Origin: a virus | Length of the DNA stretch: 31,567 nucleotides | Reading direction: 5' to 3' (one strand) | Virus record (IMG/VR): IMGVR_UViG_3300030109_001877 | Span: 1-31,567 of that record | In this document: positions 2,777 to 31,567 of the stretch, piece by piece | Numbering within the stretch: position 1 is the first letter of the stretch | Layout: the number at the start of each line of letters is the position of its first letter | Program-made: the position numbers and the translations under genes | The notes under the pieces: generated by a model | Seen by the model: only the letters and a program-made list of their open reading frames with translations | Database searches by the model: none | Told to the model about the DNA's origin: nothing

Positions 2777-2805
2777 TTGATATAACTAAACCAAACTGTA
2801 ATAAT
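2777..2805 (+). promoter_or_regulatory. Promoter of the DUF3150-MoxR-VWA operon
   Basis: TTGATA (2777-2782, 5/6), a 17-bp spacer and AATAAT (2800-2805, 5/6), with TGT just before it giving an extended -10. The expected start is near 2812, about 24 bp before the ATG at 2836. It lies in the only spacer of any size between 1760 and 8023. Confidence 0.65.
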
Positions 2806-2835
2806 CCATAATCTAATTAATTACTTGAGGAGACT

Positions 2836-3762
2836 ATGATGGATAATGACAATGTAAATGAGACACTGAGTCCTATGGAGCGGTTATCCGCTTGTGCTAG
2901 GCTTGTGTCTGTGGAGGTGCATATACCTTCTTTTCGCAGGAAAGACAAACGTGCGGCGGCAGAGTATTCCAAGGCGCGGGGTGCGAAAGAAGGTCGCCAT
3001 GACATACACAAAGTACTTGTGAACAGTCCACACCTGAAAGCGATTGTTTCACTCGGCAATGACGCGAGAACTATTATTCGCAATAGCTGCCCCCCTTACT
3101 CTCAAGGACGCTTCCTGTGCCCTAATGAGAAAATCCTTGATATATACAATGGTGTGCTAGATGTATTCACCGAGATGGAACGACACAAGGATGCCTTTCT
3201 AAAAGACTACCCTGCACAGATGGCCGCCGCGCAACTGGAACTAGGCGCAGACTATCACGAGCATGAGTATCCCACTGTGGAGGACTTGCGTGCCTATAAG
3301 TTGTCATGGGATTTCCACCGAGACCCCGTACCCATCGAAGCCGATTTTCGTGGGGAGCTAGAAGCGGATACCCTGCAAGAGCTGCAAGATACTTACACAG
3401 AGAAAGCTAATATGCGTATGAAACGTACGCTTGAGACGGTGATGGAGGCACTCGTGGAGAAGATAGGCAGGGTTTCTGACCAACTAACTGACCGTGAGGT
3501 CAATGAGGATTTGAAGCGGCAACCTAGAACGAAGTGCAAATCCTTTCATGGAACCTTGATAACCAATGTGCTGAACCTAGTCGATCAGCTAGATATATGT
3601 AACGTCCACAATGACGTGGAGATTTCAAATTTACAATCTAATCTCAGAAACTTGTTGTCCTCAGTTAACACTGAGCAGTTGAAAGCATCGGATACCTTGC
3701 GTGCTGATACTAAAGAACAAGTGGACGCGATACTTAAGAAACTACCAACTTTAAACTTCTAA
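2836..3762 (+). CDS. DUF3150-like protein, MoxR/VWA operon partner
   Basis: The product is 308 residues, soluble and mainly helical, with no signal peptide. A basic segment (about 32-60) precedes a conserved-looking central part. Residues 190-235 and 255-308 are charged helices, probably coiled coil. Length, composition and position directly upstream of a MoxR-type ATPase and a VWA protein match DUF3150 proteins, which accompany such pairs in phages and proteobacteria. I base the family call largely on context. The function of DUF3150 is unknown; it may be an adaptor or substrate for the ATPase. The start is ATG 2836 (second ATG 2839) with GAGGAG upstream. The gene opens an operon from the promoter at 2777 and is followed after 22 bp by the ATPase gene. 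Confidence 0.7.
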   Translation: MMDNDNVNETLSPMERLSACARLVSVEVHIPSFRRKDKRAAAEYSKARGAKEGRHDIHKVLVNSPHLKAIVSLGNDARTIIRNSCPPYSQGRFLCPNEKILDIYNGVLDVFTEMERHKDAFLKDYPAQMAAAQLELGADYHEHEYPTVEDLRAYKLSWDFHRDPVPIEADFRGELEADTLQELQDTYTEKANMRMKRTLETVMEALVEKIGRVSDQLTDREVNEDLKRQPRTKCKSFHGTLITNVLNLVDQLDICNVHNDVEISNLQSNLRNLLSSVNTEQLKASDTLRADTKEQVDAILKKLPTLNF

Positions 3763-3784
3763 CTAACTAACTAAGGAACCTTTT

Positions 3785-4978
3785 ATGAGTATTAATAAAA
3801 ATACACTATTTGATTTTGCTGTGCCTATGACGCAACTAGTAGACGACATTGCGGATATAGGACACAAGTGGACTATCATCATGCAGGGCGGCATGGGATG
3901 GGGTAAGACTGAATCCCTGAACTTGCTCAAGCAAAAACCTGCACTGAAAGACCATGTGTTTATCTACATTGATGGCACTACCAAGTCCGATTCCGGTGAC
4001 TTCTATATGATCAAGTATTCAGATACCGGAGAGACGTTTACTACAGTACCTCATGAAGAACTTGGTATGCATCTGGAGCAACTGGGTAAGGATGTTGTTA
4101 TCTTCTTTGATGAGATCGGTAAGATGCCGCGCTCTGCTTTCAATGCCATATTGCGTGTCCTGTATGAGCGTAAGACTGCCAATGGATTGAAACTGTCGGA
4201 CAAGTCCATTGTGTATGCGGCAACTAACATGGCAGCGGAAGGTCTGGGTGATGTGTTGCAAGCACACAGTCGGAATCGCTGTCGTATTGCTACTGTCTCT
4301 GTCCCTACCAAAATGGAATGGTTGCAGTGGGCGATCCCTAATGCCATACACGAGTTTGTTATTGGCTACGCTAACGACAATAGCTTCATATTCAAATCAT
4401 TCTTGGAGCATAACCTTGACCATCAAGGTAACTCTGAGCATCCTGAAATCTACGATCCCCGCACCCCTGAACCCCCTGTTGCTTTCGTCACTGGCCGTTC
4501 GATGGCGCACGCTTCCGATTACTTCTATCTATATGACGAGCGTATCGCTAATGCGGTCAGTGGGGGGCACTTCTCTAATGATGTTGAGAAGAGTCTGAAA
4601 CATAACCTCAAGTGCCAATTGGCAGGTGTAGTTGGGCCGAAAGCAGCGACTGACATGTTGACTTACTTCTCTCTCCAGAAGGACTTGCCCACAGAGGAAG
4701 ATATCATCAACACACCCATGACGGCCAAGATACCCAATGGTGGTGCAGCTCGTGCGTTATTGATGGCGAAGTCTCTCAAGAACATGAGAAAAGAATTGGC
4801 CGCGCCGTGGATGAAATACCTCATGCGAGAAAGTGCGGGTGAGTTCACTAAGGTAGACCAAGCGGTGTTTGGTATGGGTGCTAACGTGAAAGGCTATCAT
4901 GGCACTAAGGTGCTAGCACGCAATGAGCAGTATCAGAAGTGGGCAGAGCAGAATGTCATATTGTTTGGTAAGGCATAA
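3785..4978 (+). CDS. MoxR/CobS-type AAA+ ATPase
   Basis: The 397-residue AAA+ ATPase would use ATP to remodel a protein or load a metal or other ligand together with its VWA partner. The Walker A motif is GGMGWGKT (residues 35-42, Lys41). The Walker B motif is VVIFFDE (Asp109-Glu110). Sensor 1 is the ATN at 146-148, and an Arg-containing segment (SRNRCR) follows in the arginine-finger region. This is the MoxR/CobS/RavA style of core, with a helical C-terminal region (about 230-397) that probably forms the lid and partner-binding part. ATG 3785 has AAGGAA upstream. The VWA/peptidase gene follows after 11 bp; such pairs (RavA-ViaA, NorQ-NorD, CobS-CobT) act as complexes. All key ATPase motifs look intact, so the enzyme should be active. 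The substrate is unknown. Confidence 0.9.
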   Translation: MSINKNTLFDFAVPMTQLVDDIADIGHKWTIIMQGGMGWGKTESLNLLKQKPALKDHVFIYIDGTTKSDSGDFYMIKYSDTGETFTTVPHEELGMHLEQLGKDVVIFFDEIGKMPRSAFNAILRVLYERKTANGLKLSDKSIVYAATNMAAEGLGDVLQAHSRNRCRIATVSVPTKMEWLQWAIPNAIHEFVIGYANDNSFIFKSFLEHNLDHQGNSEHPEIYDPRTPEPPVAFVTGRSMAHASDYFYLYDERIANAVSGGHFSNDVEKSLKHNLKCQLAGVVGPKAATDMLTYFSLQKDLPTEEDIINTPMTAKIPNGGAARALLMAKSLKNMRKELAAPWMKYLMRESAGEFTKVDQAVFGMGANVKGYHGTKVLARNEQYQKWAEQNVILFGKA

Positions 4979-4989
4979 GGAGACTAACG

Positions 4990-6201
4990 ATGTTTGCATT
5001 AGCAGAGATAACACAAGAAGATCGGTTATACCGAGGACTGTGCCAAGTACTTGAGGACGATAGGTATTGTTGTCTTGCAGGAACAGCACAACTGGGGGAG
5101 TTTAAAATCGTTGATGATTTCCCCACAGCATACACCGATGGACGTAACGTTTACTTTGGCAGGGAGTTCATAACAAAACTTACCGATGCCGAAATTCGTG
5201 GGGTGATTGTTCATGAATTGGCGCACATATTCAGACGGCACATGCTCTCTCTTATGTGGATGTGGGAGAAAGACTCACAACTGTCCAATGTAGTTTGGGA
5301 CATGGTGATCAACATCCAGATCACAGAAGAGAATGCACACGACAAGTTTGCTGTGTTGCCTGAACCGCACATCTATGACGCCAAGTACAAGGGCAAGACA
5401 GAAGTACAGGTGTGGGAAGATATGTACAAGGAAGGACAAGGAGGTCAGGGGGGTAAGGAAGGTGACGGTGAAGGTTCCGGTGGCTTTGATGAACATGGTG
5501 TCGAGAAGTTTAGAGAACTGACCGAGCAAGAACAGAAGGACTTGGATGATGAAACTACCGAGGCGATACGTCAGGGTCTACTTGCTGCCGAGAAGTCTGG
5601 CAAACCCAAGAACCAGAACATCGCTGATCTAGTTGCTGTGAAGATACCGTGGGATTCCATCTTGCAAGAGTGGATGGTGACAACGTTCGGTGTTGGAGAA
5701 GATGCCACGTTCCGCAAACCTAACAAGCGGTACTTGCACATGGACATCATTCGTCCCACTGCAATACAGGACAGTCTTAAGGATGTACTAGTTGCGATTG
5801 ACACTTCAGGTAGTTGTTGCAACGCGAAGGTATTATCGAAGTTCCTATCTATTGTCCGTAACATCTTGGAGACAGTATCAGTGAACAAGGTACACCTTTT
5901 GTTCTGGGACACTGAGATCCGTAGATATGAAGTCTATGGTCAAGGACACGCACCTATATCAGAACTAGTTAACACAACTATGCAGCAAGGTGCGGAGGGC
6001 GGAGGCGGTACATCACCCAACTGTATCCCTCTTTACATGGAGCAACACAACATCAAACCCGAAGGTGCAATTGTGTTAACCGATGGTTACATCTGGGGTG
6101 GATGGGGTGATGGGCTTTGGGACTGTCCTGTGTTGTGGGGCATCCTGAACAATCCCAATGCAGTTCCTACTAACAACAAAAAAGTTGATGTAACTATTTG
6201 A
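4990..6201 (+). CDS. DUF2201-like metallopeptidase with VWA-like domain
   Basis: The 403-residue two-domain protein is the partner of the upstream AAA+ ATPase. The N-terminal domain carries HELAH (residues 75-79) followed by a D..IN segment around 100, the pattern of the putative metallopeptidase DUF2201; it would bind zinc. A Gly/Glu-rich linker (about 145-165) leads to the C-terminal VWA-like domain. That domain has a complete metal-ion-dependent adhesion site: DTSGS (271-275), Thr341 after a glycine run, and Asp365 in LTDGY. VWA proteins of this type bind the MoxR ring and deliver substrates. The site is TAAGGAGACTAACG before ATG 4990. Both metal sites look intact. Proteolysis is an inference from the motif. 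Confidence 0.9.
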   Translation: MFALAEITQEDRLYRGLCQVLEDDRYCCLAGTAQLGEFKIVDDFPTAYTDGRNVYFGREFITKLTDAEIRGVIVHELAHIFRRHMLSLMWMWEKDSQLSNVVWDMVINIQITEENAHDKFAVLPEPHIYDAKYKGKTEVQVWEDMYKEGQGGQGGKEGDGEGSGGFDEHGVEKFRELTEQEQKDLDDETTEAIRQGLLAAEKSGKPKNQNIADLVAVKIPWDSILQEWMVTTFGVGEDATFRKPNKRYLHMDIIRPTAIQDSLKDVLVAIDTSGSCCNAKVLSKFLSIVRNILETVSVNKVHLLFWDTEIRRYEVYGQGHAPISELVNTTMQQGAEGGGGTSPNCIPLYMEQHNIKPEGAIVLTDGYIWGGWGDGLWDCPVLWGILNNPNAVPTNNKKVDVTI

Positions 6202-6209
6202 GGAGAACG

Positions 6210-7412
6210 ATGATGAATGAATTGGATTTACGTTATCAACTGAACTCTGTGCAAGAGCAAGCACTCAAGTATGACACGCATCATACCTTGGGGTACTTCA
6301 ATCCTGATAACAACAGAATATGGAAGTTGTTTCAGGAAGAGGGACTTCAGTTGCTCAGAGCTAACATGGGTAGAGATGATGGCATTGCCGATCTTTACTA
6401 TGCACTCAAGGACAAGTTACCTAATCATGTTATTGAACCTACGTGCTTGGTATCCAACGACCACAAACAAAGTAAGTATGTAACGATAGATGATTGGAGT
6501 GGTGGGTTTACTGAGCTGTGCATAAGACACAAGGATGCGCCCTTTTACAATGCTATTGTGGGTACTAGTTTTGTAGAGAATGATCTGGGTACACCCACTT
6601 TGAGGTACTACGTGGCTTCCCCTTTTATCCGTAAGGAAAGAGCACTTCCAGAATGCCCTAGCCCCTATCATCTGTTTGAGAGACGTTCAACTCAGACTAA
6701 TGATATGAACAAAGCAATCAAGCTAGTCATGGGGCTTCCTCATATCACCTTCATACACATGCAGAAGGTGCTCTTCCACCGAAATGATTTAGCAGGTTAT
6801 GCACAGAAGATGTTGGAACGTGACTTGGGTGATTACATAGAGTTGGCGCGTCAGTTTATATTCGACTTGAGGCATGATACCACACTCAGTGACTATGAAG
6901 GGTTAAAGGGCAAGGCTTATACTGTAGAGAAAGCACTGCCGTTCGTAAACTCTTTGGCCCGGATTATTAGTGGTGATTCTTCAGAACAACTTGTAGAAAC
7001 AGTACATGCGAAGGACAAAGCAATAGAGTACCTTGCACGAGCCAAAACTTTACAAGAAGATTACGAAGAGACAGCTAACTTACAGCCAGTGTACGTCATG
7101 CAGATGACGGAGCAGAGTCCTGTGTATTGTTTTATGGCAGCCTTTGAAACTGCGCGTCACACCTTTGGGTACAACACACACGTTCCTAGCAAACTGAAAG
7201 CTTTCACTAGTCCTTATGAAATGCCCCATAGCGTGAAGGGTAAGATAGCAGCAGTGGAGATCAACGGAGAACAACTAACGGACATATCAGATAGATGGGA
7301 ATACTTGTCCGGTGTGGGAGCTAAAGTAGGAGAACACGCCCACGAAGTATCCTTGTTCTGTGTTGCTTTAGACAAGGGAGAAATTGAGGAGCTATTTAGT
7401 GAGACAAACTGA
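6210..7412 (+). CDS. Hypothetical 400-aa protein in the MoxR-VWA operon
   Basis: I do not recognise this protein. It is 400 residues, soluble, evenly mixed alpha/beta, with no signal peptide or membrane segment. Residues 75-150 are likely beta-rich; 160-300 are helical. The start is ATG 6210 (then ATG 6213), with AGGAG 5 bp upstream; an in-frame TTG at 6198 is less likely. It follows the VWA gene by 8 bp and its end overlaps the next gene by 14 bp, so it is expressed with the ATPase and VWA/peptidase. It is therefore a candidate substrate, client or third subunit of that machine. The tract AGGAGAACGATGATGAA at its start is repeated exactly at the start of the gene at 8303. Confidence 0.8.
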   Translation: MMNELDLRYQLNSVQEQALKYDTHHTLGYFNPDNNRIWKLFQEEGLQLLRANMGRDDGIADLYYALKDKLPNHVIEPTCLVSNDHKQSKYVTIDDWSGGFTELCIRHKDAPFYNAIVGTSFVENDLGTPTLRYYVASPFIRKERALPECPSPYHLFERRSTQTNDMNKAIKLVMGLPHITFIHMQKVLFHRNDLAGYAQKMLERDLGDYIELARQFIFDLRHDTTLSDYEGLKGKAYTVEKALPFVNSLARIISGDSSEQLVETVHAKDKAIEYLARAKTLQEDYEETANLQPVYVMQMTEQSPVYCFMAAFETARHTFGYNTHVPSKLKAFTSPYEMPHSVKGKIAAVEINGEQLTDISDRWEYLSGVGAKVGEHAHEVSLFCVALDKGEIEELFSETN

Positions 7413-7689
7413 TCTATTTAAAATAGAGGTATTGGTGTGTAGAGATAACAGCTTAAGCGATAAAGTTGTTGTAGAGAAAGTGGGGCGTGACACTACACGA
7501 TGGGACTATCTTACTAAGCACTGTGTATTGCCAGTGGAAGAACTCCCTAAGTGGTTACAAAGAAAACTAGCGGTCTTGTTTTTAAAGAGTTACACCCCAC
7601 CTACTGAAGACATTCCTCATGTTGGTAAGAGGATGAGCCGCACTGAATTTTGGGTATGCGTAGGAGGAAGCGATGGCAATGACCCCTGA
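7399..7689 (+). CDS. Small hypothetical protein, GTG start
   Basis: The product is 96 residues and not recognised. I chose GTG 7399 because GAGGAG (7385-7390) lies 8 bp upstream; the TTG at 7384 would lie within that site's position and lack its own. The frame overlaps the preceding gene by 14 bp and the following nuclease gene by 17 bp, implying translational coupling. The protein is basic and mixed alpha/beta, with a W-D-Y-L and a W-L-Q-R-K segment. It may be a small partner of the VRR-NUC nuclease. Confidence 0.65.
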   Translation: MRQTDLFKIEVLVCRDNSLSDKVVVEKVGRDTTRWDYLTKHCVLPVEELPKWLQRKLAVLFLKSYTPPTEDIPHVGKRMSRTEFWVCVGGSDGNDP

Positions 7690-8023
7690 GAAGAAAGTTA
7701 AACAAAGAGTTGTGAACATATTAAAAAACATGGACGAAGAAGTGTACTATTTCTTTCCCGCAACAGGTGGATATGGGAGGTCAGGTGTCCCCGATATTGT
7801 TGTTTGTTTTGATGGTATGTTTTACGGAATAGAATGTAAGGCAGGTAAGAACAAACCAACTGCACTACAACAACGTGAGCTAGAGAACATTAACGGTGCG
7901 GGTGGTGTAGCGTGGGTCGTCAATGAAGATAACGTGGAGTCTGTAGAAGAAGTACTGAGAACAAGAGAACATGATGGGCCGCGCAGACAGTCGTGGCAAC
8001 AACTTATATTAGATTTGGAATAG
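7673..8023 (+). CDS. VRR-NUC domain endonuclease
   Basis: The 116-residue stand-alone VRR-NUC nuclease belongs to the PD-(D/E)XK superfamily, whose members cut branched or Holliday-type DNA. The signature is clear: G-R-S-G-V-P-D41 followed by the central E54-C-K56 pair, then a helix with Q-Q-R-E (about 65-70). Its length is the usual one for phage single-domain members. A GTAGGAGGAAGCG site precedes ATG 7673. It overlaps the previous gene by 17 bp and is the last gene of the operon, followed by the long structured spacer. Likely roles are resolving replication or recombination intermediates, or trimming DNA before packaging. Cytoplasmic. Confidence 0.9.
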   Translation: MAMTPEKKVKQRVVNILKNMDEEVYYFFPATGGYGRSGVPDIVVCFDGMFYGIECKAGKNKPTALQQRELENINGAGGVAWVVNEDNVESVEEVLRTREHDGPRRQSWQQLILDLE

Positions 8024-21187: not shown

Positions 21188-21213
21188 TGCCCTCCATGTG
21201 AGGGCATTTTTTT
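21188..21213 (+). terminator. Rho-independent terminator at operon convergence
   Basis: TGCCCTC (21188-21194) pairs perfectly with GAGGGCA (21200-21206) around the loop CATGT, and seven T residues follow (21207-21213). It terminates the + strand operon 127 bp after the primase-helicase stop. Its T-tract runs into the complement of the stop codon of the - strand giant gene. No T-tract lies on the - strand side, so it works one way only. Confidence 0.93.
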
Positions 21214-24200
21214 ATCCTACATAAAAGTCGTCTTCGCCTAGTTCTTGTAGTCGCCTACGCACCACAGCGTTCAAACGTTGTCGGTTCACCGTTATACCCC
21301 CTAGTCTGCGTGCTATCTGAGAGGTTATGCGGTGTTGTCTTAACGACCTGCTCTTCGTAGACCCTGTAATCCTTACTTCAGGGTTTCTTGCGTTGAACTC
21401 CATGATATCCCTATCCGCGTCAAGCACTCCTGTAAAGTCCCCTTCACGGAAAGCCATGTAACGTTGACGTAACAACTTAGTTCTTTTCTCACTAATGTTC
21501 CTGTCTATACGTTTATCTCGTGCGTTTATTTCTAGCTGTTTCGTGTAGTCAGCAGGGGCAAACCCAAGGAATTGCCCAAGAATAGAACGTGCTGATAGGT
21601 CTTCTGTAATTGGGTCACCTCGTAGAGTACGTGCACCCTCAGTAGCATAGCGGATGCTTTTTAGTGGCCCTGAGAAACCTGCGGGTAACATTCCTTCCAA
21701 CCCACGTCTGTATTCACCTTCGTCCATTAAACCTTTACTACGTGAAATACGTTGCCCTATACCGTAAAGTGGGCCACCTGCCATTTCTAAAACGTAACTA
21801 AGACCATCATCTATCTCATTATTAGGCAATGACCTAAATATTAAATTAGTCATACCAATACGAGGCGCAAAATCTACGTCAAAAATTTCATTGAGTATGC
21901 CTGAATAGGCAGTTTCACCAATGTTAGCGGCTACAATGCTGTCAAAATCATCATCTTGGTCGTCTAAGAAGAATAAGTTAGCTACACCAGCAAACACACC
22001 ATAAAGAGGTAACCCTTGTGCTCCTGCCAATAAACCAGACATACCGAACAATCCAGCAATTTGTTTTTTAGCGTCTTTTTGTTCTTGTTCTGAAAAGTTG
22101 CCCATTCGTATAGCTTGTTTAGCCATCTTCATTTGCAGATAAGCCATAGATATACCGAACCGCTTATACATGAGAAGTATGCTACTAATATCACCTTGAG
22201 CTATTTGAGGAGCTGTTTCTATTAGCGCACCACTGTTAGTATGTTCAACGTCAAGCATTACCTCGTTTACAAAATTACTACCTAATGCGTGTACTTTTTC
22301 CAAATAGGCTTCGTATTTACGAATCTGCTCTTTAGTAGCACCTTTTTTTGGAGGTTTTCTTACAGTTTCTAGTTTGCTATCTGCTTTAGCTTTATCCAAC
22401 GCTAGTTTGTACGCAGCCATCGCTGTAATTTGTCTGTTAAATCTTTCCCCTTGATGGAACATAAATCCAGAGATTCCATTTACAGCCGTTATAGTTCGGT
22501 CAAACTTCCCACCCGTTGGATTATCTATATCTAGCATGTCTCCAACAGTAGACGCATTAGCTGCTCCTCTGTCAACAAGTTCTCTTATTAGAGGCTTAAG
22601 TTCTGCATATTCTTCCGGTAAGTTTTCAAGATCAAGGTTGGCGAGGCTAGGCCCATCAATCTCATATAAGTCATCTCTGGTTAACCCTCGCTTCTTTAAC
22701 TCTGCATCTAAATTTGCGTCTTCAAGCCCTTCAAGGTTTTCAAGCCCTGCTACTCTGCGTTTAACGCCAGTACCAGAGTATAATTTCATAGCTTCCATCA
22801 TAGCTGCCATCGTGTTACGCATCCCATAGCGTCCTGCTAAATAAGGCAACACTACAATGGGTAAGATGAAAGAGTTAACTACGGCAGAAGAAACGTTAAA
22901 ACCTAGTGTCATCAAGAACCCAAGTGATTTAAGTCGTCTACTGTTGGTGCTTATCTTGGGGTTTTTAACAAAGTCTGCGTATTCTGTTCCTTTCTGCACT
23001 AATTGTTCAGCGTAATCCAGTTCGCCCTGACTACCAGTAACCTGTGCTCTTAGATTGTTTAAGTTAGTTTTAACTTGGTCAAGAGGAGCGTCAAACTTTA
23101 AATTGTCTACTTGCCCCATAAAAGCTGGCATACGTTGACGGAACACATCGATAGCGTCTCTTTCTGCCCCACGGACATCTTTTCTAGTCCTAAAAGCGCG
23201 ATGCAAAGAACGCTCTGGCATTGCGTCAATAAGAGCGTCTTGTACAATACTATCTAAGGCATCACCCGCGCTCATTACTTGTTTGTACTTAGCTTCTGCG
23301 GCTGCAAGTTCTTCAGGTGTGGGTTCTCTGTTTTCTTCTTTAGCTGCGGCCAATTCTTTTTGTCTGGCTCTTTTTGCGGCTTGTTCTTTCTTCGCTCTTA
23401 CATCCGCAAGTAGTCCTTGTGCCCATCGAATGTCTACAGAAGAACGTTCTGATGCGTCAACTTGAGGGCGGTCTAACATTGTACCTTCCAAAGCAGTTCT
23501 AAATTCTGCTTCCTGTATCTGTTCAGGAGTGGCATTAGGATTAGTTTTTAATAGTGCTTCCCGTCCTCTTTTTCTAGCTTCAACAATAGTACCTGCTTCA
23601 CTTGTAAGTAGTTCTTCTCTCAGTCTTGTATCTTGTAAGATAGCTTGTTCGTACCGTTGCCTGTCTCGTTGAGAATCAAAAGCAGTTTTATATGGTTCAG
23701 GTCGTCCTGTAATTGGATCAAGACCCATGTGGGTGTACCAAAAATCACCTTTTCTAAACAACGGAAAATAAGGTTCTATAAGCTCTTTGTTTAAAAGTTC
23801 CAATAGAATTTTATCTTTGTACGATTGTTTTGCTTGTGCCGCTTCTTCAGAATCGGTTGGAACTCCATCAATACGTGCTACCAAGGCTTTACGTAAATCT
23901 TCGTAAGCGTCCGAATAGGCATCTCGTAGCTCTACGTACACCTCTCTTGCTTTTGGATCAAGCCTATTCCAGTACTCCATTATATTGTTGTAGTCTTTTT
24001 CTGCTTCTTCGCTAGGGTTTATCTTACCGAACTTTGACCGTTCTTCTTTTGATAACTTGTCATTCTCAGCTTGTTCCTTCTCAAAAGCCGCATCTCTTTT
24101 TTCCGCAGTTGGAAAGTGGTAAGTGTTCCTGTTACCGTCTTTATCTACCACAGTGTAACGATACCCTGTGTAGTACTCTTTAGCGTTCTTTCTGGAAGGG

Positions 24201-27200
24201 TCTATTCTAAGTAAAGTACTTTCTTCTACTATAAAGTTAAAAAGTTTGCGTTGATTTGGGCCTAACTTATTAAGTATCTTTTCGAACCGCCTTGCCTTGT
24301 CTTTAGTTAACAGCAGATACTTTTGCCTAGAACCATTCTTTTGCTGAATAATTTTAAACAGCTCATCCAAACCTCTGCCTAAATCTCTTATACCTTCGTT
24401 GTTACTTTGTTTTGCAAAGTCAGCTATGGAATTGAGAGGCAATAACTTAAAAAAGAACCCACGAGCGTCATTAGTTGCTTGCGGCGCATACGCATTAAAT
24501 ATAGAAGCCGCATCTTGTGGAACCTCACCGCCATATCCGTCAAATAGGTCATCCAAAAACGCATCTTCTTTACCTGCCGTTACCGCTAGGTTCATAGCAG
24601 GAGCGTTACGGTATTGAGGAGCAGGAGAGATCATGTCCCCTACTATCTTATCTACCTCACTCATTGCTGAGTTCAATTTCTTTGTAGGAAGACGGCGTAA
24701 TACGCGAATTACGTTAGCCACTATATTCTTAAATCGCTCCAATACCCCTAACTTATCTCCGTTGGTGTCCATAGAAGCTAGTTTGGCTTGGAACTCTGGG
24801 TTGGAAAAAGCCTCGGCAACAAATTCATCAAGGTTAGTAGTACCGTAAGCGTCTTCTAATCTGTCTTTAACGCTATCAAAGAGTCTCTGTAACTGTTTAG
24901 TAGTTGACCTGCTTTTGTTAGCAATTACGTGTGAAGTAACAGCGTGCAAGGATTCGTGCAACAGAGCGTGGTTAGTAGGGGGTATGCTTTCGTTCAGAAT
25001 AATAGTATTAGTTCTAGGATCGAACATACCTGCCAACAAACGCCCTTTCCCATCCATCAAGTTTGGTTGGAATGTAACCTTAGTGCCACTTTCTGCAATG
25101 GCTTTGTTGATGGCTCTAGCAACTTTTCGTACATCTTTATCTTGATTATTACCAAGTAGTTCCAGAGCTTCTGCCAGTTTCCCTTCTCGTAGTAGCTGGG
25201 TAACTTCTGGGTCTAAAACAGCCGCTGCTCCCACTAGTTTCTTCATTGGGAGAGGCATACCCAAGTCACTTCGCATACTGTTCTGCATAGCCTCTAAATT
25301 TTTTCTGGTGCTTTCAGAAGCGTTTTGTTGAATCCACGCTATTTTAGCTCTCGCGTCTGCTTTTTGTTGGGCAGTTCCATCAATGGAATTATAAGCAAGA
25401 GCCGAGAGAAAACTCTCCATATCGTCTCCAGTTTCTATTTCCTCAAACTCTGCCCGGAATTTTTCTTCGTCTAATTCTTTGTCAACTTGTTGTTGAGCTA
25501 CGCTTTCTTCTGTTGCGTTACGAGTATCGCCAGTTGCCTGTGGTTCTGACTCGACAGTAGTGGCTTCTTCTTTAGCTGCTTGTGCCTCTTCGTCTGTAGC
25601 GTTCTTAACGTTTTCTCTTCGATTAGGTCGTAGGATTCCTCCACGAGGGCCAAGCATTTCTATTTGCTCTTGTCTTTGCTCTTCTAGTTTTTCAAGTATG
25701 CGTTGTTGTTCTGCAATTTCTTGATCTAAACGATTGCTTTCCGCTTGTGCTTGAGCAGCAGGGTCAGCAGGTTCTACTTGTGGTATCTCTAATTGCGCTT
25801 GTCCCTCTACTGGACGGCCAGTACGATCTTGTTCTTGTTGCACTTCTCGTAAAGCTGCACCTAACGCAGGTTCTACGGAAGAATCTTGTCCTGCTTCCAT
25901 TGTTGCCGCCAACGCTTGTAAGTCTTCTGCACGTTCTTGTTCGCGTTGTGTAAAAGCTGCTTCCTGTTGTTCCTGAATAACATCCTGTTCAATACCTTCT
26001 CCTATGGTCATTTGTCCCGGCGCTTCTTTACGGGCAATCTGATCCATTTCAGAAGCCATCGCACCTGCTTCTTGTTCTGCGCTCTCTTTTGCGGCTAACG
26101 TTTCTGCTCTCGTTAGTATGGGCATGTTAAGTAAACCCAATACTTTATTTCGACTATCTCTGTAACGAGATTTTACTGTAGGGTTATTTGCATAATTAAC
26201 GATGGTTTCTACAGCAGTACGAGCATCCTGTGGGTCAGCCAAATCGAGTGCAGGAAGTTCTTTCTTTAACTTAGTGCTTGTAATACCTAAACCTTCTAAG
26301 TCTTCTTTAGTTATAGCTGTTTTCTCTTCAGCCATAATCTCCGTAAATAACTCGCGTTGTGCACCCTCACTCCTTAATTTTTCTTCATTGGCAATCGCTT
26401 CTTCAAATGCGGCTGCGAACCTTTCAGGGTACGCCCTACCTTGTGGGTCAACTAATATAGCCGAACCATCTCCAGTAGGTGGTGGGGGTAAACGATAGGT
26501 TCCTTGAGGTAAAGCAGGGGGAGGAACGGGAGGAACGGGAGGAAGAACTTCTCCTTCCAATATGGGTTCTGGGACAGGCACGAGATCAGTCCCAGTTGTA
26601 GCGGGTTCTGTAGCTACTTCTGCCTCACGGCCACTTAATTCTTCCCGTAACCTTCGCGCTCGTGATCGACTACCTAAAGCACCAATCGGGCCAAGTGTAC
26701 CGCCGACAGTAACAGCAAGGTAAGCTGCTTCGCCGTATTCAGAAAGAGCTTCAGGAGATAATACGTCTAGGCCAGCTTGTGCTCTTTCCAAAACTTGTTG
26801 GGCTACTTCTGTAGGCAGCTCTGCACCCGCACCTCTAGCAATGCCTCGCCCTATAGTTTTAGCTGTACCTAAGTCTGCCTCCCGCACTAGTTTTTCCGCA
26901 GCTTCTCGTAGCTGAGTGGAGCTTAACTTTGTAACATCTCCTTGTACCAACTTGTTTACAAGACCTTTACCTAAGATAAAGTATTGTCCCGCTAACTCTG
27001 GTATTGATTGTAAGGCGGCTGTACCAACAGCTTTTCCTAGCTCTACATCTACCGGACGGCCTTCGTCTATATCGGCTTGAGCCTGACGTTCAAGATTGTA
27101 CCCAGTAAATTGAGGTATAAGAGCAGCAAGACCGCCAACACCTGCGCCTATTCCAGCACCTATAGCTGTGCCTATACCGGGAAAAAAAGAGCCTATTCCA

Positions 27201-27652
27201 GCTCCAGCTACAGCGCCCATTTTAGCAGCAGCAACTGTGCTAAGTATTTGTGCTCCTTGCCCTGCAACGGCTTGTGGAATCTGGCCTAGCGCAGTCCCTA
27301 CAGTGGGTAGTATTCCTTCAGCATCTAGTACTTTCTGTAAAGTTGGGCCTTCACCGTAGCGTTGCGCTATGTCTTCGCTACGCTCTAACCCTGCAAGTGC
27401 GGCTGCTTCGTCATCCCCAAAAGTTGCTTCGCCAGCAGTGCGTATAGCCGAAAAAAGAGATTCTCCACCCCGCATGAGTTGCCCACCAAAAGTGCTTTCT
27501 GGAGGGGGAGGGGGTAGCGTAACGTCAATGCCTTGGCGTAATCTGAAGTAAGCATCCCTTGCTAATGCTGGGCCTTGTTCGTCAGGAGTACCTTTAGGTA
27601 CATAAAAGTCAAACTTTTCCCCTGAAGGTGCTGTTCCTGTAGCGATAGGCAT
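21212..27652 (-). CDS. Giant virion-type protein with zinc-peptidase motif
   Basis: At 2146 residues this is by far the largest gene in the window. Residues 138-180 are a glycine-zipper hydrophobic segment (G-A-V-A-G-A-G-I-G and G-A-G-I-G-A-G-V-G-G), typical of membrane-penetrating internal virion proteins. About 500-740 is Gln/Glu-rich coiled coil. H899-E-S-L-H903, with E947 in E-F-V-A-E-A-F-S-N, forms a complete HExxH...E zinc site. Residues 1580-1610 and 1865-1900 are further hydrophobic segments. This mix resembles phage large polyvalent or internal ejection proteins that enter the host with the DNA. AAGGAAG precedes the ATG. It is the last gene of the structural block; the peptidase could process virion proteins or open the host envelope. 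Confidence 0.85.
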   Translation of the reverse strand: MPIATGTAPSGEKFDFYVPKGTPDEQGPALARDAYFRLRQGIDVTLPPPPPESTFGGQLMRGGESLFSAIRTAGEATFGDDEAAALAGLERSEDIAQRYGEGPTLQKVLDAEGILPTVGTALGQIPQAVAGQGAQILSTVAAAKMGAVAGAGIGSFFPGIGTAIGAGIGAGVGGLAALIPQFTGYNLERQAQADIDEGRPVDVELGKAVGTAALQSIPELAGQYFILGKGLVNKLVQGDVTKLSSTQLREAAEKLVREADLGTAKTIGRGIARGAGAELPTEVAQQVLERAQAGLDVLSPEALSEYGEAAYLAVTVGGTLGPIGALGSRSRARRLREELSGREAEVATEPATTGTDLVPVPEPILEGEVLPPVPPVPPPALPQGTYRLPPPPTGDGSAILVDPQGRAYPERFAAAFEEAIANEEKLRSEGAQRELFTEIMAEEKTAITKEDLEGLGITSTKLKKELPALDLADPQDARTAVETIVNYANNPTVKSRYRDSRNKVLGLLNMPILTRAETLAAKESAEQEAGAMASEMDQIARKEAPGQMTIGEGIEQDVIQEQQEAAFTQREQERAEDLQALAATMEAGQDSSVEPALGAALREVQQEQDRTGRPVEGQAQLEIPQVEPADPAAQAQAESNRLDQEIAEQQRILEKLEEQRQEQIEMLGPRGGILRPNRRENVKNATDEEAQAAKEEATTVESEPQATGDTRNATEESVAQQQVDKELDEEKFRAEFEEIETGDDMESFLSALAYNSIDGTAQQKADARAKIAWIQQNASESTRKNLEAMQNSMRSDLGMPLPMKKLVGAAAVLDPEVTQLLREGKLAEALELLGNNQDKDVRKVARAINKAIAESGTKVTFQPNLMDGKGRLLAGMFDPRTNTIILNESIPPTNHALLHESLHAVTSHVIANKSRSTTKQLQRLFDSVKDRLEDAYGTTNLDEFVAEAFSNPEFQAKLASMDTNGDKLGVLERFKNIVANVIRVLRRLPTKKLNSAMSEVDKIVGDMISPAPQYRNAPAMNLAVTAGKEDAFLDDLFDGYGGEVPQDAASIFNAYAPQATNDARGFFFKLLPLNSIADFAKQSNNEGIRDLGRGLDELFKIIQQKNGSRQKYLLLTKDKARRFEKILNKLGPNQRKLFNFIVEESTLLRIDPSRKNAKEYYTGYRYTVVDKDGNRNTYHFPTAEKRDAAFEKEQAENDKLSKEERSKFGKINPSEEAEKDYNNIMEYWNRLDPKAREVYVELRDAYSDAYEDLRKALVARIDGVPTDSEEAAQAKQSYKDKILLELLNKELIEPYFPLFRKGDFWYTHMGLDPITGRPEPYKTAFDSQRDRQRYEQAILQDTRLREELLTSEAGTIVEARKRGREALLKTNPNATPEQIQEAEFRTALEGTMLDRPQVDASERSSVDIRWAQGLLADVRAKKEQAAKRARQKELAAAKEENREPTPEELAAAEAKYKQVMSAGDALDSIVQDALIDAMPERSLHRAFRTRKDVRGAERDAIDVFRQRMPAFMGQVDNLKFDAPLDQVKTNLNNLRAQVTGSQGELDYAEQLVQKGTEYADFVKNPKISTNSRRLKSLGFLMTLGFNVSSAVVNSFILPIVVLPYLAGRYGMRNTMAAMMEAMKLYSGTGVKRRVAGLENLEGLEDANLDAELKKRGLTRDDLYEIDGPSLANLDLENLPEEYAELKPLIRELVDRGAANASTVGDMLDIDNPTGGKFDRTITAVNGISGFMFHQGERFNRQITAMAAYKLALDKAKADSKLETVRKPPKKGATKEQIRKYEAYLEKVHALGSNFVNEVMLDVEHTNSGALIETAPQIAQGDISSILLMYKRFGISMAYLQMKMAKQAIRMGNFSEQEQKDAKKQIAGLFGMSGLLAGAQGLPLYGVFAGVANLFFLDDQDDDFDSIVAANIGETAYSGILNEIFDVDFAPRIGMTNLIFRSLPNNEIDDGLSYVLEMAGGPLYGIGQRISRSKGLMDEGEYRRGLEGMLPAGFSGPLKSIRYATEGARTLRGDPITEDLSARSILGQFLGFAPADYTKQLEINARDKRIDRNISEKRTKLLRQRYMAFREGDFTGVLDADRDIMEFNARNPEVRITGSTKSRSLRQHRITSQIARRLGGITVNRQRLNAVVRRRLQELGEDDFYVG

Positions 27653-30721: not shown

Positions 30722-31567
30722 TCAAGCAGGAAGTTTTTGCATAGGGTCTATTTCCGTACCTTGTTTGGTAGTTCCAGTACGGGATTCTCTTACCCTATCC
30801 ATCATTGAATACAGTTGTTTTGCTCCAGCATCTGAGTTGCCATTACCTAAATGACTAACAACATCAGCAGGAACTACAAATTCTCCATCACTTAATGCGG
30901 CTGGTTGTGTTCCATCTATGTTAGCGGGTACGAGATCAGCCATACCGTCTGTAGGCCCACCTAAATAATAACTATCTAAAGCTCCACCTTGAGCTAATGT
31001 ACGAGTAAGGTCTTTGAAACCACGAGAATTAGTATTGAAATTGTCCCGAATCTGATCTGCCGTAATACCTTCAAACTTAGGATCATTACTGTAATAAGCC
31101 GCGACTTCTTCAGGTGTGGTTCTACCTGCATCAAGTAAACGTACTATTAATTCTTCTTCTGTAAGCCCTTCTTGACCCATATAGTTTACAACGTCAGGAG
31201 GAGTAAACCCTCTCTTCCTTAACAGGTCTTCTGCAATATCTAATGTTCCCGTATCAAATTTACCTGCTACCTGTGGAATAGTTGCTTCCCCACGTCTTAT
31301 TGCGTCTACGACTGTGCCTATGTTATCTGATGAAGGTGTTGCCCCTGCCATTAAAAGATCATAGGCGCTAGGCGTAGGTGTAGCAGCAGGTGTAGCAGCA
31401 GGTGTAGGTGTAGCAGCAGGTGTAGGTGTAGCAGCAGGTGTAGGTGTAGCAGCAGTCGCTTCAGTAGTATCTATACCTCCACTTATTGCACCTAATAATG
31501 CGTCTCCCGCTGCTTGTTGATCTGCTACTCGTTTTGCTTCAGCCGCTTCAGCGGTTCGCATTTGAGC
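30722..31567 (-). CDS. Putative structural protein, 5' end beyond the window
   Basis: The first in-frame ATG is at 31561, but the frame stays open to the window edge and no ribosome binding site can be seen, so this is probably a truncated gene (at least 281 residues). It has an Ala-rich helical start and a P-T-P-A-A-T repeat region (about 40-65). The C-terminal part contains S-D-G-E-F-V-V-P-A-D-V-V-S-H-L-G-N-G-N, which I recall from phage virion or tail-associated proteins. Its stop lies 10 bp before the start of the next structural gene. Confidence 0.75.
   Translation of the reverse strand, partial: AQMRTAEAAEAKRVADQQAAGDALLGAISGGIDTTEATAATPTPAATPTPAATPTPAATPAATPTPSAYDLLMAGATPSSDNIGTVVDAIRRGEATIPQVAGKFDTGTLDIAEDLLRKRGFTPPDVVNYMGQEGLTEEELIVRLLDAGRTTPEEVAAYYSNDPKFEGITADQIRDNFNTNSRGFKDLTRTLAQGGALDSYYLGGPTDGMADLVPANIDGTQPAALSDGEFVVPADVVSHLGNGNSDAGAKQLYSMMDRVRESRTGTTKQGTEIDPMQKLPA
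31375..31455 (-). repeat. Low-complexity Ala-Thr-Pro repeats in virion gene
   Basis: GCAGCAGGTGTAGGTGTA-type units of 12-18 bp repeat in tandem, coding for A-T-P-T-P-A in the - strand gene. Repeat number can vary without breaking the frame. They make an extended, flexible linker. Confidence 0.85.

Follow-up and report, generated by a model that had tools for sequence, protein, structure and literature searches.

Three adjacent genes in a 31.6-kb record of an uncultivated virus (IMG/VR record IMGVR_UViG_3300030109_001877, all 31,567 nucleotides of which we call the window) form a co-inherited module that is well supported as being shared by phages and plasmids. Open reading frame (ORF) 1 (positions 2836-3762, + strand) encodes a 308-residue helical protein of the DUF3150 family, the third member of the trio; ORF2 (3785-4978, + strand) encodes a 397-residue AAA+ ATPase, probably of the MoxR/midasin-like kind; and ORF3 (4990-6201, + strand) encodes a 403-residue DUF2201 protein that joins an N-terminal HExxH metallopeptidase-like domain to a C-terminal VWA domain with a complete metal-ion-dependent adhesion site (MIDAS). 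Co-inheritance, residue conservation and proximity to replication, recombination and transfer genes are observed. From these we infer, giving the reading an even chance, that the trio is a MIDAS-guided AAA+ remodeller of the DNA-replication and recombination complexes of mobile elements.

The window comes from a podovirus-like lineage, and its PolA, primase and SNF2 proteins share ~25-40% identity with Rollin, RHph_TM27A and the KPP25 group. Using PolA as bait in IMG/VR, we gathered 145 relatives and kept 80 loci, the sampled contigs being fragments; scans of the same database with the single proteins ORF2 and ORF3 gave no matches. Trio genes are present in every lineage locus that extends at least 7 kb upstream of PolA, in the order DUF3150 - AAA - VWA - (other genes) - nuclease - PolA - RecB-type exonuclease - SNF2, and a few distant contigs show a VWA - DUF3150 order with the AAA side past the contig end. 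Outside the lineage, tblastn with a relative of ORF1 matched 44 records of plasmids and four of phages, and the AAA, DUF3150 and VWA genes are all found in the inspected plasmid loci and in cyanophage MinM2. A genome scan with DUF3150 alone recovered 44 loci, 43 with all three genes and the other clipped at a contig edge; Alpha- and Betaproteobacteria are represented, together with two Bacteroidota and one WWE3 contig, and the bacterial examples of this DUF2201 branch come mostly from Burkholderiales. In total, all three genes lie on one strand in 64 loci and occur in three gene orders, spanning the phage lineage, the cyanophage, plasmids of Burkholderiales and Rhodospirillales, and contigs from Bacteroidota and WWE3. 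Because the set is conserved though rearranged, joint function is better supported than it would be by synteny alone. Pairwise distances of the three proteins also co-vary (r 0.94-0.98), a correlation that is likewise raised by the shared ancestry of whole elements.

A second branch of the same three protein families occurs on IncC plasmids and SXT-like integrative and conjugative elements (ICEs), in which the VWA protein is CobT-like where that of the window is DUF2201. Among 398 Pseudomonadota genomes sampled independently with the Pfam profile, 10 carry DUF3150, and most of the eight loci fetched combine a Walker-A ATPase and DUF3150 with a CobT-like VWA protein carrying both HExxH and DxSxS; the exceptions are one locus without a visible ATPase (L156), one without a visible VWA (L158) and one that ends inside the VWA gene (L157). 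The annotated order is AAA - SSB - Bet - Exo - DUF3150 - VWA on IncC plasmids, SSB - Bet - YqaJ - AAA - DUF3150 - VWA - RadC on an SXT-like element and RecT - Exo - MoxR - DUF3150 - VWA on a Citrobacter plasmid. DUF3150 proteins of this branch are found on 1168 plasmid records, 978 of them typed as conjugative. Similarity between the DUF3150 proteins of the two branches is weak (E 0.003-0.08); both are joined by PF11348, and the link between the branches rests on profiles.

The residues that the earlier note had picked out in ORF2 and ORF3 are present and vary little or not at all among relatives, so the motifs are not chance occurrences. In ORF2, K41 (Walker A), D109-E110 (Walker B), the sensor residue N148 and the arginine R165 are conserved among relatives, and the Walker A lysine is retained in all AAA copies spanning the site. 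ORF2 matches a PHROG ATPase family (8e-25) and falls under the Pfam AAA_5 cut-off; a profile search of the PDB with the AAA profile gave midasin as the best match (6e-41) and also NorQ (4e-5), and the AAA homologue from an ICE-like element carries CbbQ_C. ORF3 exceeds the Pfam cut-offs for DUF2201_N (E=4e-17, 63.2 bits) and for the DUF2201 VWA domain (E=5e-9, 36.9 bits), with peptidase-like residues H75, E76, H79, H84 and D104 and MIDAS residues D271, S273, S275, T341 and D365. Its VWA domain extends nearly to the C-terminus, and MDN1-MIDAS is one of several VWA domains that the VWA model matches; Foldseek matches to Ro60 probably reflect the VWA domain and were set aside. HExxH is intact in all 21 lineage VWA copies spanning the site and MIDAS is complete in 24 of 24, while outside the lineage MIDAS is complete in all spanning copies but one, which has serine in place of T341. 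Several plasmid or chromosomal copies have lost HExxH and kept MIDAS (L088/L096, L089, L117, L119, L120 and L127; L102 has HD), which suggests that peptidase activity is dispensable there. Since the MIDAS and Walker residues are kept and HExxH is lost in several copies, the common core would consist of DUF3150, a protein with a MIDAS and a ring protein that binds ATP, and proteolysis looks optional across the relatives of the trio.

PHROG 1314 labels this VWA-metallopeptidase family 'HNH endonuclease', as do RefSeq phage records, and we found no Pfam HNH match in ORF3. On a Bacteroidota contig (L100, 5862-6956) the VWA protein is split into a peptidase half and a VWA half encoded as two ORFs. 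Papers naming DUF2201 are, judged from their titles and abstracts, not about a system of the ORF1-ORF3 type.

ORF1 had been called DUF3150-like in the earlier note, and its orthologues and fold bear this out. Alone, ORF1 matches Pfam DUF3150 (PF11348) at E=0.077, under the cut-off; in its alignment of 14 sequences 9 reach E<=0.1, three related phage records exceed the cut-off, and the AlphaFold model of ORF1 resembles a viral DUF3150 protein (TM 0.77, E=3e-16). In its structural model (pLDDT 82), DUF3150 is long and helical. Neither Foldseek nor profile searches gave a convincing relative of solved structure, the VIA-align rows for ORF1 were rejected as generic helical bundles, and DUF3150 is named in no paper found in our literature search. 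One phage (Tunturi_3, L092) has a DUF3150 gene annotated as an HNH endonuclease, with no VWA partner detectable.

Machines that couple an AAA+ ring to a MIDAS/VWA partner, as the trio would, include midasin/Rea1, RavA-ViaA, CbbQ-CbbO and NorQ-NorD. In midasin/Rea1, the MIDAS holds the client and the AAA+ ring pulls. To our knowledge, no DUF3150 partner accompanies any of these machines, and although the trio resembles midasin and NorQ by profile or fold, the substrates of those machines differ. By analogy, the ORF2 protein may form a ring to which the MIDAS of ORF3 would present a bound substrate, with ORF1 as a partner; a role for DUF3150 as an adaptor or coupling subunit would fit its modelled long helical form. 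ATP-driven pulling would then dismantle or reorganise a protein or nucleoprotein complex, and in phages the HExxH domain may cut the substrate, though not all relatives require it. The most likely stage would be DNA replication or recombination, for example the clearing or recycling of proteins on the element's own DNA. The physical complex, its direction of action and its substrate are inferred throughout; the remodelling-machine reading of the three proteins, already proposed in the earlier note, gains support and now takes in conjugative plasmids and ICE-like elements.

The genomic setting points in the same direction. Recurring neighbours are PolA, exonucleases, SNF2 and a nuclease in the window's lineage, whereas plasmids and ICE-like elements have SSB-Bet-Exo, YqaJ, RadC and primase there; an SSB and a primase also lie beside locus L112, and at the Bacteroidota loci there are proteins that we read from their sequences as ParB- and PrimPol-like. 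In SXT, the source of the only experiments on this system that we found, deletions of s067, s068 and s070 lower transfer at most tenfold (PMC2791158); by gene order these genes should lie in or beside the trio module, their numbering being unverified. On the strength of this recurring replication and recombination context and of the SXT deletion effects, we prefer a remodeller of DNA-bound complexes and place counter-defence second. In the latter, the trio would unfold or cleave a host defence or DNA-handling protein and so let incoming phage or plasmid DNA survive, which is possible but in our judgement unlikely. Lytic phages and conjugative elements, both carriers of the trio, meet the same barriers, DUF3150 is patchily distributed (the 10 of 398 genomes above), and the small SXT effect, if the gene match holds, was recorded between laboratory strains. 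The trio proteins also diverge faster (27, 30 and 35% identity) than PolA, the nuclease and SNF2 (59-65%), but hardly more than the primase, SSB and 16618 proteins of the phages (35-39%), and we therefore rejected fast divergence as proof of an arms race, the primase and SSB diverging almost as fast. Further against counter-defence, PADLOC profiles gave marginal matches only, none convincing; there is no variable effector; and in IncC and SXT-like elements the trio sits inside a recombination cassette.

Several observations weigh against the remodeller that we prefer. The case made from neighbouring DNA genes is one of guilt by association, and the early regions of mobile elements also hold counter-defence genes. 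On most Burkholderia plasmids the nearest neighbours belong to a type IV secretion system (T4SS) and are not recombination genes. The Walker B glutamate, kept in the phage copies, is replaced by aspartate (DD for DE) in 43 ATPases from plasmids or chromosomes (L087-L139), so ATP hydrolysis may differ in these 43. N4-like phages, jumbo phages and TM27A have no detectable DUF3150, which hence is not universally needed, and the proposed complex and substrate draw their support from sequence and gene context.

The T4SS neighbours bear on another explanation, namely that the trio is an assembly factor for the conjugation or DNA-transfer apparatus of plasmids that phages have co-opted. VirB T4SS genes lie close to 34 of the 53 non-lineage loci, and on Burkholderia plasmids the trio stands immediately upstream of a VirB11-type ATPase gene; phages, however, have no T4SS, and SXT transfer changes by at most tenfold when the putatively matching genes s067, s068 and s070 are deleted (PMC2791158). 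We regard this explanation as improbable.

The phage-borne pair of ATPase and VWA protein has precedents in the literature: an AAA-VWA pair without DUF3150 is already known as N4 gp24-gp25 and as the MoxR-vWA pair of jumbo phages. N4 gp24 (AAA+ ATPase) and gp25 (vWA/metallopeptidase), signature genes of Schitoviridae, stand next to each other as an AAA gene and a DUF2201 VWA gene, ordered as in the window; the window proteins match phrog_1297 and phrog_1314, and the VWA profile matches EcP1 at E=3e-134, although the N4-like pair lies in a different phage backbone and shares ~20-27% identity with the window. Group 2.2 jumbo phages carry the same two components, with a vWA protein bearing an N-terminal peptidase domain, and no third component is described for them, unlike the window with its DUF3150; a virion-assembly role has been proposed for that pair (PMC7824862). 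DUF3150 was not detectable in EcP1, vB_SupP_AX, MIJ3 or TM27A.

These precedents speak for a chaperone and protease of virion assembly, as proposed for the jumbo phages and for the ATV p618/p892 pair, and N4 gp24 and gp25 are indeed listed among the signature genes of N4-like phages (PMC7650795). Against this, plasmids and ICE-like elements carry the full trio although they make no virion, so virion assembly is unlikely as a general role. Within the window the trio lies away from the structural genes, on the + strand with the replication genes, while a 2146-residue protein and its neighbours lie on the opposite strand; the loss of HExxH from several plasmid copies also speaks against an assembly protease. 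We thus consider this role unlikely, more so than counter-defence.

Also close in composition are the MoxR-vWA ternary conflict systems (PMC7159879), which, like the trio, combine a MoxR AAA protein, a vWA protein and a third component. Their third component is a VMAP, iSTAND or FtsH protein, accompanied by variable C-terminal effectors, whereas the third gene of the trio is DUF3150, no such effectors are present and the VWA domain reaches nearly to the C-terminus, which places the trio outside the VMAP/iSTAND/FtsH classes. The carriers differ as well, being lytic phages and conjugative elements in the case of the trio.

Phage pairs of this kind are frequently annotated as cobS/cobT (PMC8651126, PMC11288001, PMC11705849), which would make them viral CobST cobaltochelatase subunits and hence auxiliary metabolic genes for B12, and the VWA protein of ICE-like elements does match Pfam CobT. 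Yet CobNST does not include a DUF3150 component, the VWA protein of the window is DUF2201 and not CobT, and CobN was found in none of eight records (six related phage contigs, EcP1 and MinM2, some incomplete) in a search that was positive in five control genomes. The absence of CobN from these records disfavours a self-sufficient chelatase; a host CobN is possible, and we judge the chelatase explanation extremely improbable overall.

Downstream of the trio, the + strand continues with ORF4 (6210-7412; 400 residues, function unknown), ORF5 (7399-7689; 96 residues, function unknown), which lies between ORF4 and the nuclease gene, and ORF6 (7673-8023), a 116-residue putative VRR-NUC/Hjc-like PD-(D/E)XK nuclease. 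All six genes stand in the order first described, each behind a Shine-Dalgarno-like stretch rich in purines; the first three junctions are intervals of 22, 11 and 8 nt, and the last two are overlaps. A single promoter had been proposed for them: a promoter-like site does exist upstream of ORF1 (2777-2805, + strand; TTGATA-17-AATAAT, 10/12, TG-extended) and is plausible as a promoter, but such sites are no commoner in the region than chance allows (10 against 12.8 expected in shuffles).

Whether the six genes work as a single system, with the ATPase-VWA trio controlling the nuclease, can be judged from their distribution. The trio - ORF4 - ORF5 - nuclease order is kept in close relatives, and trio and nuclease keep one order across the lineage; outside the lineage the six-gene order is not conserved. 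Where PolA is ~59% identical, the nuclease is ~59% and SNF2 65% identical, against 27% for ORF1, 30% for AAA and 35% for VWA, so trio and nuclease evolve at different rates. Rollin has PolA, the nuclease and SNF2 and lacks the VWA gene, KPP25 has PolA and SNF2 without VWA, and in RHph_TM27A the nuclease adjoins SNF2, ~7 kb from the VWA gene. No nuclease of the ORF6 kind is annotated beside the plasmid and ICE-like copies that we inspected. ORF4 and ORF5 are lineage-specific: ORF5 is present across much of the phage lineage, and direct matches to ORF4 occur only in close relatives. From these divergence rates, gene contents and distributions, the six-gene order is a trait of the lineage, and the unit with the wider range is the trio. 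The tie between nuclease and machine considered in the earlier note thus finds no support, control of the nuclease by the trio being very doubtful, and the nuclease, which sits in the phage's replication module, is probably a separate replication or recombination enzyme of the same gene cluster, outside the machine. ORF6 itself falls just under the Pfam Hjc cut-off (E=6e-4, 20.1 bits against 21.1) and matches a PHROG endonuclease family (E=1e-19), and its RHph_TM27A homologue is annotated VRR-NUC.

ORF4 is remotely similar (71% probability, E=4e-5) to a ~330-residue protein (group B) whose gene comes before that of the nuclease in distant relatives, and of which it is a probable remote homologue by sequence. 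It has no similarity to another ~330-residue protein (group A), and kinship with that protein was rejected; group A is an unknown family occupying the slot behind VWA in part of the lineage (L046, L056, L071 and L080). Elsewhere in the window, the 2146-residue protein (21212-27652, - strand) is a large polyvalent protein with LPD39, a DarB-like PHROG match and an HExxH-like HESLH motif, and in-frame short tandem repeats with units of 9 bp and 18 bp at 698-765 and 31388-31455 encode Pro/Thr- or Ala-rich stretches.

Taken beyond the window, MoxR-DUF3150-VWA may constitute an undescribed ternary AAA+ class dedicated to mobile elements, one that remodels replication or recombination complexes on incoming DNA and, over part of its range, cuts protein as well, a proposal that we rate somewhat below an even chance. 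Its range would cover lytic phages, cyanophages, conjugative plasmids including IncC, and SXT-like ICEs. Such a class would unite genes that are now annotated apart, as B12 auxiliary metabolic genes, virion chaperones, 'HNH endonucleases' and hypothetical proteins, into one three-gene machine whose carriers are very different mobile elements, the IncC multidrug-resistance plasmids among them. If the link holds, the B12 reading of phage 'CobS/CobT' could be tested against the trio machine, and N4 gp24-gp25 and the SXT-type genes would be ready laboratory systems for finding the machine's job.

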